DNA of 32,255 nucleotides. Origin: Methanomicrobiales archaeon HGW-Methanomicrobiales-3 (lineage in GTDB: Archaea; Halobacteriota; Methanomicrobia; Methanomicrobiales; Methanospirillaceae). The DNA lies in the NCBI GenBank assembly GCA_002839605.1, contig PGYK01000014.1, positions 1 through 32,255 of the forward strand, written 5' to 3'. The position numbers and the translations under genes were made by a program. This document shows, one piece after another, positions 12,584-14,565 of the stretch; position 1 is the first letter of the stretch, and every line of letters starts with the position of its first letter. The notes beneath the pieces are model-generated. The model was not told where the DNA came from. It did no database searches and saw only the letters and a program-made list of their open reading frames with translations.

Positions 12584-13093
12584 TTATCCGGTCTGTTCCG
12601 GAACCGCGTCCATCCTGTCCGCATGGACTGCCACGTACACATCGATCTCCTTGTTTTCGGGGCGGGTGAACCGCTGGTCATACACCTCAAAATCGAAGGT
12701 ATAGGCGCGGGGAAGATCGGAGAGCCAGATGGTACTCCAGACATTGAGGAGCGACTGGGGCATCTCACCCTTTGCCACAAAATGGGCATACGTCTGTTCC
12801 GGGATCTTTCGCACTTCCATACCTTCCGGCACGTCCGGGGCACGGGTGACCCCGCACCCGATCAGAAATGCATACTCCTTTGTCCAGTCCTTCTCGTAAT
12901 CGGAATAGACCGCATACATCTTCGGGGGAACGGCCCGGTTCTTGATCTGCACTGCGGCGTTTTTTGTCAAGAAATCCCGCCAGACTGCCGGAATATCCTC
13001 AATGCTCCGGCCGTCCGCATTGCAGGTCCTGCGGGAGACGCCCACGACCGTGAACCCGGGAATTTTCTTTAGGGTAAACGAATGATCTTCCAT
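12584..13093 (-). CDS. GyrI-like/AraC effector-binding domain protein
   Basis: A stand-alone effector-binding domain of the GyrI/SOUL-related fold, about 169 residues. Typical features: the opening strand FTLKKIPGFTVVGVSRRT, the middle MYAVYSDYEKDWTKEYAFLIGCGV, the strand RKIPEQTYAHFVAKGEMPQSL with VWSTIWLSDL, and the closing DFEVYDQRF...EIDVYVAV. Such domains bind small, often cationic or hydrophobic ligands. No DNA-binding domain is attached. The ATG at 13093 is preferred because family members begin just before the KIPGF strand; ATGs at 13120, 13132 and 13150 are in frame. It is divergent from cofC. Ligand unknown. Confidence 0.8.
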   Translation of the reverse strand: MEDHSFTLKKIPGFTVVGVSRRTCNADGRSIEDIPAVWRDFLTKNAAVQIKNRAVPPKMYAVYSDYEKDWTKEYAFLIGCGVTRAPDVPEGMEVRKIPEQTYAHFVAKGEMPQSLLNVWSTIWLSDLPRAYTFDFEVYDQRFTRPENKEIDVYVAVHADRMDAVPEQTG

Positions 13094-13192
13094 CCTATGG
13101 ATCTCGGCATGGAACCTCATAAACCGTGCCATCTTCCCGAATGGATGCATATCAGCACCTTTTTTTCATTCCCCGGCGTATCTGGCTGTATC

Positions 13193-13819
13193 ATGTGTCC
13201 GCATGCCCTGATCCCGTATAAGCCAAAGAACCCCAAGACCCGCCTCTCCTCTGTCCTTGAACCCGAAGAACGGGAGAAACTCGCATCCGCGATGCTCGAG
13301 GACGTGCTCCAGTTGATGCGGGAGATGTGCTGTATGCCGGTGGTGGTGGCTACGGAACTCTTCGAGAACGAGGTCGTCCAGATCACGGTTGCGGATGCTG
13401 ACCTCAACCAGACCCTCAACGAGATCCTCCCGGATACCAAGCGGGATCTCTTGATCATCATGGCCGATCTCCCGCTTGCGGATGCAGCCTCGATCAAACG
13501 GGTGCTCGCAACCGACAAGGACATGGCAATCGTGCCCGGCCGGGGCGGGGGGACCAACGTCATCTACCTCAGGGAACCCTGGAAGTTCCGGGTAAACTAC
13601 TATGGTGCCAGTTTTTTAAAGCACCTCCAGATCGCAGAGGATGCCAGGTTCTCGGTGGAAGTCATCGACTCCTTCCGGCTCCATACCGATATCGACGAAC
13701 CGGAAGATCTTGTCGAACTTCTCATTCATGGAACGGGCCGGAGCCGTGCCTGCCTTGGTGATCTCGGTTTTGTCCTTTCCGATGAGAAAGGGCGGGTCGG
13801 GGTACAACGCAAACGATAG
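13193..13819 (+). CDS. cofC: 2-phospho-L-lactate guanylyltransferase CofC
   Basis: A nucleotidyltransferase that activates 2-phospholactate (or a related three-carbon acid) with GTP for F420 synthesis. The 208 residues start MCPHALIPYKPKNPKTRLS, with the NTP-binding A-x-(I/V)P(Y/F)K...K(T/S)RLS signature. The metal-binding aspartate is in LLIIMADLPLAD (about 97-108), followed by VPGRGGGTNV and the DIDEPEDL motif (about 180). The frame runs on upstream, but the ATG at 13193 matches the family start. The upstream spacer is AT-rich with a T-run. An RNase III gene follows within 35 nt and may be cotranscribed. Confidence 0.93.
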   Translation: MCPHALIPYKPKNPKTRLSSVLEPEEREKLASAMLEDVLQLMREMCCMPVVVATELFENEVVQITVADADLNQTLNEILPDTKRDLLIIMADLPLADAASIKRVLATDKDMAIVPGRGGGTNVIYLREPWKFRVNYYGASFLKHLQIAEDARFSVEVIDSFRLHTDIDEPEDLVELLIHGTGRSRACLGDLGFVLSDEKGRVGVQRKR

Positions 13820-13851
13820 GATTATGAATCTGCGTGGCAGAATGCCATGCT

Positions 13852-14565
13852 ATGAAGCAAGGGCCGGGACAATCTCTGATCGAACTCCTGCGATCCCAGG
13901 ATCCTGACATCGGCTCCATCATCCCCGTTTTTGTTGTGCGGTTCAATGCGGCCTATGGTGACCCGCAGGCCGAACGCTGGGACATATCCGCGGAGGACTG
14001 GCAGCGCTACGAGTTCCTTGGTGATCGTGTCCTGAACCTGATCGTTGCTCAGACTCTCTTCACCCAGCGGCCGGTTGCTCTTGATGAAGGCGAGATGACG
14101 GAGATTTTATGCACGGTCGTATCCAACAAATCGCTCGACCTCCTCTCCCGCGACCATGATGCCTTAAATCTTCTTATCCCCCGCACGATCGGGGAACAGA
14201 ACTGTTACGGGGAACGGATCACGGGCGGGGCGTTCGAGGCCTTCATCGGCGCCCTGTACTGCGAGGTTGGACTGGACGATGTCGCCTATTTTGTCAATGA
14301 AGTTCTTGCCGGGCCCCTTGCAAACTACAACCCCCGCCATAATGCGATCGGGATCCTCCAGGAGTATTGCCAGAAAGAAAAAAAACCCCTGCCGGAATAT
14401 ACCCTCATCGAAAGGAGCGGCCCGGACCATAAACCCCTCTTCAGGGTTGCCGTTACCGTAGATGGGGAAAAGACCTTCGAAGGGACCGGCCCCTCCCTTT
14501 CCATGGCAAAGAAATCGGCTGCAAAAAACGCCCTTGAATCGCTTGAGCGCACCTTCACCTCTTGA
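13852..14565 (+). CDS. rnc: Ribonuclease III with dsRNA-binding domain, altered active site
   Basis: A class I RNase III architecture: nuclease domain (about 1-150) then a dsRNA-binding domain (about 160-235). The signature helix is RYEFLGDRVLNLIVAQTLF, which keeps the E-x3-D pair. The second catalytic helix reads TGGAFEAFIGALY where the family has A-D-x-F-E-A: the glutamate is present but the aspartate equivalent to E. coli D114 is glycine. The dsRBD is canonical: LQEYCQKEKKPLPEYTL, GPDHKPLFRV and AKKSAAKNALESL. So it should bind dsRNA, but cleavage may be weakened or altered. RNase III is patchy in archaea. Start uncertain: ATG at 13852 is used; a GTG at 13834 adds six residues. It follows cofC by 32 nt. 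A T5 tract after the stop (about 14581-14585) may end the transcript. Confidence 0.88.
   Translation: MKQGPGQSLIELLRSQDPDIGSIIPVFVVRFNAAYGDPQAERWDISAEDWQRYEFLGDRVLNLIVAQTLFTQRPVALDEGEMTEILCTVVSNKSLDLLSRDHDALNLLIPRTIGEQNCYGERITGGAFEAFIGALYCEVGLDDVAYFVNEVLAGPLANYNPRHNAIGILQEYCQKEKKPLPEYTLIERSGPDHKPLFRVAVTVDGEKTFEGTGPSLSMAKKSAAKNALESLERTFTS

Follow-up and report, generated by a model that had tools for sequence, protein, structure and literature searches.

Can an RNase III that has lost one of its four catalytic carboxylates still cleave double-stranded RNA (dsRNA)? The question is raised by an rnc-like gene in a 32,255-nucleotide stretch of contig PGYK01000014.1 from Methanomicrobiales archaeon HGW-Methanomicrobiales-3, here called the window. 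A first-pass annotation had read the second catalytic motif of the encoded protein as carrying glycine where RNase III has aspartate, and the codon bears this out (Gly126, GGG at 14227-14229). Judged largely by analogy with known enzymes, the protein is likely to be an RNase III of class I architecture that still cleaves dsRNA from a three-carboxylate site, with Gly in the place of Asp.

Architecture of the protein

The coding sequence runs from 13852 to 14562, with the stop codon extending through 14565. There is an in-frame GTG at 13834, ahead of this start, and the Met at 13852 is matched in the orthologue alignment. The gene, its domains and its upstream neighbor are as follows.

13082..13819, + strand: cofC (2-phospho-L-lactate guanylyltransferase-like), directly upstream on the same strand (PF01983, 1.7e-46)
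13852..14565, + strand: rnc-like gene, RNase III domain plus dsRNA-binding domain (dsRBD), 237 aa (ORF, Pfam, orthologue alignment)
14002..14265, + strand: RNase III domain, residues 51-138 (PF00636 match)
14347..14544, + strand: dsRNA-binding domain, residues 166-231 (PF00035; fold match 1di2)

The catalytic domain matches PF00636 (5.4e-13, 50.0 bits, cut-off 27) and PF14622 (5.6e-13, 49.6 bits, cut-off 35). The C-terminal dsRBD is intact, as had been supposed: it matches PF00035 at 1.7e-18 (67.4 bits, above the cut-off), and its modelled structure fits 1di2 with Z 13.6 and rmsd 0.7. An AlphaFold2 model was built on 40 sequences as a single chain. Its mean pLDDT is 81.8 and its pTM 0.69, and every stretch below 50 precedes residue 44. 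The top structural match of this model is E. coli RNase III, 7r97 (Z 15.2, 203 residues aligned, rmsd 5.1; Foldseek E 3.5e-12).

The Pfam matches, the dsRBD and the predicted structure give the protein an RNase III fold and class I architecture. Its 237 residues hold a single RNase III domain, not the two of Dicer and Drosha, and the presence of a dsRBD separates it from Mini-RNase III, a catalytic domain without one. Bacterial class I enzymes (E. coli, A. aeolicus) share its domain order with a dsRBD, the EFLGD sequence, the motif-2 Glu and the fold. Unlike them, it has Gly for the motif-2 Asp, Gln for the outer Glu, non-bacterial residues at N92 and R122, a shorter loop ahead of motif 2, and no H-x-S motif in the N-terminal half. 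The NCBIfam equivalog model for RNaseIII, TIGR02191, gives it 133.9 bits, below the 166.25 required, which weighs against reading it as an active enzyme.

Among 121 loci searched with flanks of mostly 1-3 kb, cofC adjoins the RNase III gene in every one of the 25 loci L001-L025, in L029 and in L032. A GyrI-like/Cass2 effector-binding gene (12584-13150, - strand) is divergent and overlaps the start of the cofC frame (13082-13819, +). In most members of the clade, both of these genes stay next to the one for RNase III.

Active-site residues

Motif 1 reads WQRYEFLGDRVL and holds E54 and D58. Motif 2 reads ITGGAFEAFIGALY and holds G125, G126 and E129. Relative to the E41/D45/D114/E117 quartet of E. 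coli, three carboxylates are kept and D114 has become Gly126, so the annotation was also right that the motif-2 Glu and the E-x3-D pair of motif 1 (E54, D58, E129) are retained. In A. aeolicus and E. coli numbering, respectively, E54 corresponds to E40/E41, D58 to D44/D45, G126 to D107/D114 and E129 to E110/E117; PMC4632822 is the source of the A. aeolicus signature, 37-ETLEFLGDA-45, and of the catalytic positions in that enzyme.

14002..14004, + strand: Q51, outer Glu position (E. coli E38 / A. aeolicus E37), by alignment
14011..14013, + strand: E54 (E. coli E41), metal ligand, GAG/GAA in 23/23 orthologues
14023..14025, + strand: D58 (E. coli D45), metal ligand, GAC/GAT in 23/23 orthologues
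14086..14088, + strand: E79 (E. coli E65), 23/23 orthologues
14125..14127, + strand: N92, aligned with the eukaryotic catalytic Asn by alignment to both Drosha domains
14137..14139, + strand: D96, one helical turn past N92, candidate substitute carboxylate, 22/23 clade rows
14215..14217, + strand: R122, at the alignment position of the eukaryotic catalytic Lys, four residues ahead of the motif-2 Asp site, R/K in 23/23
14227..14229, + strand: G126, motif-2 Asp position (E. coli D114 / A. aeolicus D107), Gly in 23/23
14236..14238, + strand: E129 (E. coli E117), essential metal ligand, 23/23 orthologues

The outer position is Gln in 20 orthologues and Glu in three; 79 bacterial relatives have Glu in 68 and Gln in 11. 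Loss of one carboxylate in four, together with Q51 in place of the outer Glu, would fit a dead or nearly dead enzyme that acts as a dsRNA-binding regulator, protecting or sequestering dsRNA through its dsRBD. Engineered E. coli EEQ shows such behavior, binding tightly without cutting (PMC9291653). The model also matches RNase III-fold proteins of the mitoribosome (9hcg, Z 13.9). Those mitoribosomal proteins are not known to be active. A regulator, proposed in the first-pass annotation, is nonetheless disfavored by the conservation described next, and we consider it unlikely.

Gly126 is fixed and under selection

Of 100 relatives searched, 56 have homologues. The orthologue clade, L001-L023, comprises 22 genomes of the same genus and one from a neighboring genus; a further fragment, L024, stops short of motif 2 and is not among the 23 counted. 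All 23 orthologues carry GG in motif 2, which excludes a sequencing error and shows that the Gly, whose fixation the annotation had wanted checked, is fixed among these orthologues. GG is also found in two further loci, L232 and L233. A Methanoregula fragment, L122, is 88% identical. In locus L234, motif 2 has GT and position 54 is Ala, so that both the motif-1 Glu and the motif-2 Asp (here Thr) are gone; the carboxylates left are the same two as in Mini-RNase III.

All four Gly codons are in use at position 126 (GGG 13, GGA 4, GGT 4, GGC 2). E54, D58, E79, N92 and E129 are likewise unchanged in all 23 orthologues while their codons vary synonymously, in an alignment with 58 invariant columns out of 237. 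E54, D58, E79, N92, G126 and E129 are under purifying selection across the clade. Constancy of E54, D58, E79 and E129 despite synonymous drift argues against a regulator without catalysis. The codons bear equally on the suggestion that Gly126 is a neutral accident of the lineage, without consequence. Such an accident would suit a site that is labile across the family, but four Gly codons with no other residue in 23 orthologues indicate that Gly itself is constrained here and kept by selection. We regard neutrality as quite improbable.

Locus L032, from another genus and also linked to cofC, has Asp at site 126 (SDDFEA). It is sister to the Gly clade in trees that are unrooted and carry a long-branch warning at that node. 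Its Asp, its sister position and the shared synteny together suggest that Gly126 was probably gained inside the cofC-linked lineage.

Could another acidic residue have taken over from the lost Asp, leaving a rearranged four-carboxylate site with ordinary kinetics? The candidates are D96 and E121. D96 lies one turn beyond N92 in a modelled helix (92-101) and is nearly private to the clade, being present in 22 of 23 rows, in none of the other non-Asp rows and in 3% of Asp rows. It is missing, however, from L017, L025 and L233, all of which have GG, and it is present in L032, which retains the Asp of motif 2. L013 has Ala in place of E121, and the other Gly, Ser or Ala lineages have no such acidic residue. 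A full takeover is thus rather unlikely.

Site 126 varies among archaea and bacteria

Calling out the Gly as a variant site had implied that the substitution is rare, and the wider alignments speak against this. From 120 archaeal loci we obtained 95 rows by removing 14 single-domain proteins, three fragments (L024, L029, L067) and eight duplicates. Bacterial relatives were chosen by the patterns [WNY][QE]R[YL]EFLGD or [GA][GD]AFEA[FL][IV]G, taking the best 80 of 546 loci; the 80th row was the Methanoregula fragment L122, leaving 79. Since rows were selected by pattern or similarity, the counts that follow are not prevalences. The archaeal rows have D 44, G 37, N 5, S 5, A 3 and T 1 at site 126, and the bacterial rows D 56, N 14, S 3, C 3, G 2 and A 1. 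Residues other than Asp thus occupy 51 of 95 and 23 of 79 rows, while the partner Glu is constant. E54, D58, E79 and E129 are each present in all 79 bacterial relatives, with the archaeal L122 left out.

The same picture emerges from a 128-row tree, in which 33 bacterial rows had been chosen so that 17 were non-Asp. Site 126 changes at least 30 times in this tree, 23 of them between Asp and non-Asp, against two changes at E54, one at D58, seven at E79 and none at E129, which is kept in all 128 rows. With the 95 archaeal rows alone, there are 16 changes, 11 of them Asp/non-Asp. Two RNase IIIs of Gammaproteobacteria are non-Asp with otherwise standard motifs (SILAGALEA, SILAGTLEA). Gly126 is a genuine variant, fixed in the clade and kept by selection, and it falls within the known natural variation of RNase III. 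That relatives so commonly lack the same Asp again argues against a dead regulator and points to a protein that probably still works as an enzyme.

C. jejuni RNase III was considered as a precedent because other Campylobacterota carry Asn, and was set aside since its PDB sequence has Asp (SILSDALEA). This enzyme complements E. coli rnc and prefers Mn2+, as described in PMC3839596.

An order-level table was made with 90 of the 92 rows remaining after duplicate removal; it excludes eight archaeal rows that are distant, as well as L247 and L261, which are partial. Asp58 with a non-Asp residue at 126 occurs in 56 rows, Asp at both sites in 17, and Asn58 with Asp126 in 15; the other two rows have Asn at both. 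Most rows therefore have three carboxylates, not four. E. coli D45, the motif-1 Asp, is commonly regarded as essential. One group, all from Methanomicrobiales and bearing EFLGNYVLD or EFFGNYxLD (L042, L043, L044, L049, L050, L079, L250, L254-L264), has Asn for this motif-1 Asp and retains the motif-2 Asp; L043 and L260 have Asn at both. With several lineages having lost the Asp of motif 2 or of motif 1, the family offers a natural experiment on the number of carboxylates required for RNase III catalysis.

Precedents and proposed mechanism

In the post-cleavage structure of the E. coli enzyme, E41 and E117 hold MgA, D45 and E117 hold MgB, and the remaining carboxylate, D114, makes no direct contact with Mg2+ (PMC9291653). 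Against this second-shell view, the equivalent Asp binds metal 2 in the Mn2+ structure of the E. histolytica enzyme (PMC5357909). Taken together, the two structures suggest that the motif-2 Asp is helpful and that its role is not uniform.

Natural enzymes without this Asp are known. B. subtilis Mini-RNase III (class IV / MrnC) lacks the equivalents of both E40 and D107 (PMC4632822), and Mini-III cuts dsRNA and is inactivated by E106Q (PMC5141509). Some RIIIDa domains of class III, the Drosha class, have Asn for Asp (PMC5357909), as seen in the Drosha motif 2, MANCFEA. The likeness has limits. Mini-RNase III resembles our protein in an active site without the motif-2 Asp (PMC4632822), but it has neither E40 nor a dsRBD, whereas E54 and a dsRBD are present here. 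Drosha RIIIDa shares a replaced motif-2 Asp, a basic residue at -4 (His) and the eukaryotic Asn; in contrast, our protein has one RNase III domain, Gly instead of Asn, and none of Drosha's other domains. As both architectures differ from that of our protein, they serve as precedents by analogy. Mutant enzymes count against activity: a review table lists E. coli D114A as weakly active, with the row "n.d. / weak / low" (PMC8708148), and another review has A. aeolicus E40Q, D44N, D107N and E110Q binding RNA without cleaving it (PMC8138440).

The activity of Mini-RNase III and the weak activity of E. coli D114A lead us to prefer the reading of a still active enzyme whose metal site is weakened. 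The protein would act as a homodimer, with metals held by E54, D58 and E129 and with Gly replacing a fourth, second-shell Asp. N92, whose counterpart makes a water-mediated metal contact in yeast enzymes, probably supports the weakened site. R122 probably does so as well, through a phosphate or water contact analogous to that of the eukaryotic Lys, and D96 may partly make up for the lost charge. Binding of dsRNA through the dsRBD is expected to be normal. Cleavage is expected to be slower, to need more Mg2+ or to go better with Mn2+. Altered metal use or slow cleavage, two outcomes the annotation had listed, would be the most likely consequence of Gly126.

A eukaryote-type Asn and a basic residue

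In alignments with Drosha, N92 falls on an Asn in each of the two RNase III domains; R122 falls on Lys in RIIIDb and on His in RIIIDa. Position 122 is Lys in four of the 23 orthologues and otherwise Arg. Of the 95 archaeal rows, 90 have Asn at position 92; none of the 79 bacterial relatives does. A catalytic Asn and Lys are described as conserved in eukaryotic RNase IIIs and not in bacteria; the Asn contacts a metal by way of a water molecule, and the Lys makes contact with either the nucleophilic water or the phosphate of the product (PMC5357909). Changing either residue to Ala in HsDicer or KpDcr1 significantly reduces cleavage (PMC5357909), so residues at these positions matter in those enzymes. 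Yeast class II enzymes carry Asn and a basic residue at the two positions (KpDcr1 N184/K217, Rnt1 N278/K313; PMC5357909); they differ from our protein in keeping the motif-2 Asp and in having an N-terminal dimerization domain.

Within the 90-row order-level set, position 122 is basic in 47 of the 58 rows that lack Asp126 and in none of the 32 that have it. Phylogenetic pairs for this coupling were non-significant (five starred pairs, median p 0.25; two pairs, p 0.5), and Lys occurs with Asp in 12 archaeal rows outside that set. A link between basic 122 and loss of Asp126 is only hinted at.

These residues raise the possibility, which we find doubtful, that Methanomicrobial RNase IIIs are a distinct catalytic type, marked by the eukaryote-type Asn, by only three carboxylates and, in many cases, by a basic residue at 122. 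The type would have two groups, one having lost the motif-2 Asp (Gly/Ser/Ala) and one having lost the motif-1 Asp (Asn58) with motif 2 kept. If the Asn reflects common descent, archaeal enzymes, not bacterial ones, would be the closer prokaryotic relatives of the Dicer, Drosha and Rnt1 RNase III domains, contradicting the published view that Euryarchaeota received RNase III from bacteria. The scores do not support an overall closeness to Drosha over bacteria: the window protein scores 43.8 bits with its best Drosha domain and 57.2 with T. maritima. The A1 profile puts Drosha first by summing two domains; per domain, it gives Drosha 137 and T. maritima 173 bits. The main interest lies in the labile carboxylate and the eukaryote-type Asn rather than in the single Gly.

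RNase III in archaea

Two reviews describe RNase III as absent or most likely absent from archaea (PMC8708148, PMC3432209). Acquisition by some mesophilic Euryarchaeota has been allowed for in PMC4571572, so presence in archaea is not in itself new. Our exact-phrase literature search on archaeal RNase III found no papers. TIGR02191 matches 150 of 392 genomes of the phylum, eight of them above the curated cut-off, in keeping with the patchy archaeal distribution assumed at the outset. Despite the reviews, RNase III is thus found in many methanogens, in enzymes that carry an Asn thought to mark eukaryotes. Within the order, the A1 profile has matches in 210 of 232 genomes, and in many of these the match comes from a second family that lacks a dsRBD; among 30 loci from this order-wide search, L231 alone was analyzed.

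The dsRBD-less family, of about 150-210 aa, is common in the order (L096-L100, L109-L114, L118-L120, L265-L271). It has xxTLGDAV, from which the motif-1 Glu is missing, and its motif-2 site is occupied by Asp or Glu (AETLEA, AECMEA, ADTVEA). The window's genome also encodes a second RNase III (L031, 5336-6112 of contig C16) with EFSGD and RAGAFEA, hence Gly at the site. This paralogue has Asp in place of Asn at the N92 position and a weak dsRBD match (22.0 bits, cut-off 23), and its type recurs in genome G013 (L048). A further archaeal group in the phylum, family f10 (L088-L092, L104-L107, L115-L117), bears KVIADVFEAICGAIY. Its motif 2 resembles that of Dicer and Drosha, with Lys at -4 in most rows, and the best PDB match of L088 is Drosha (1.7e-24).
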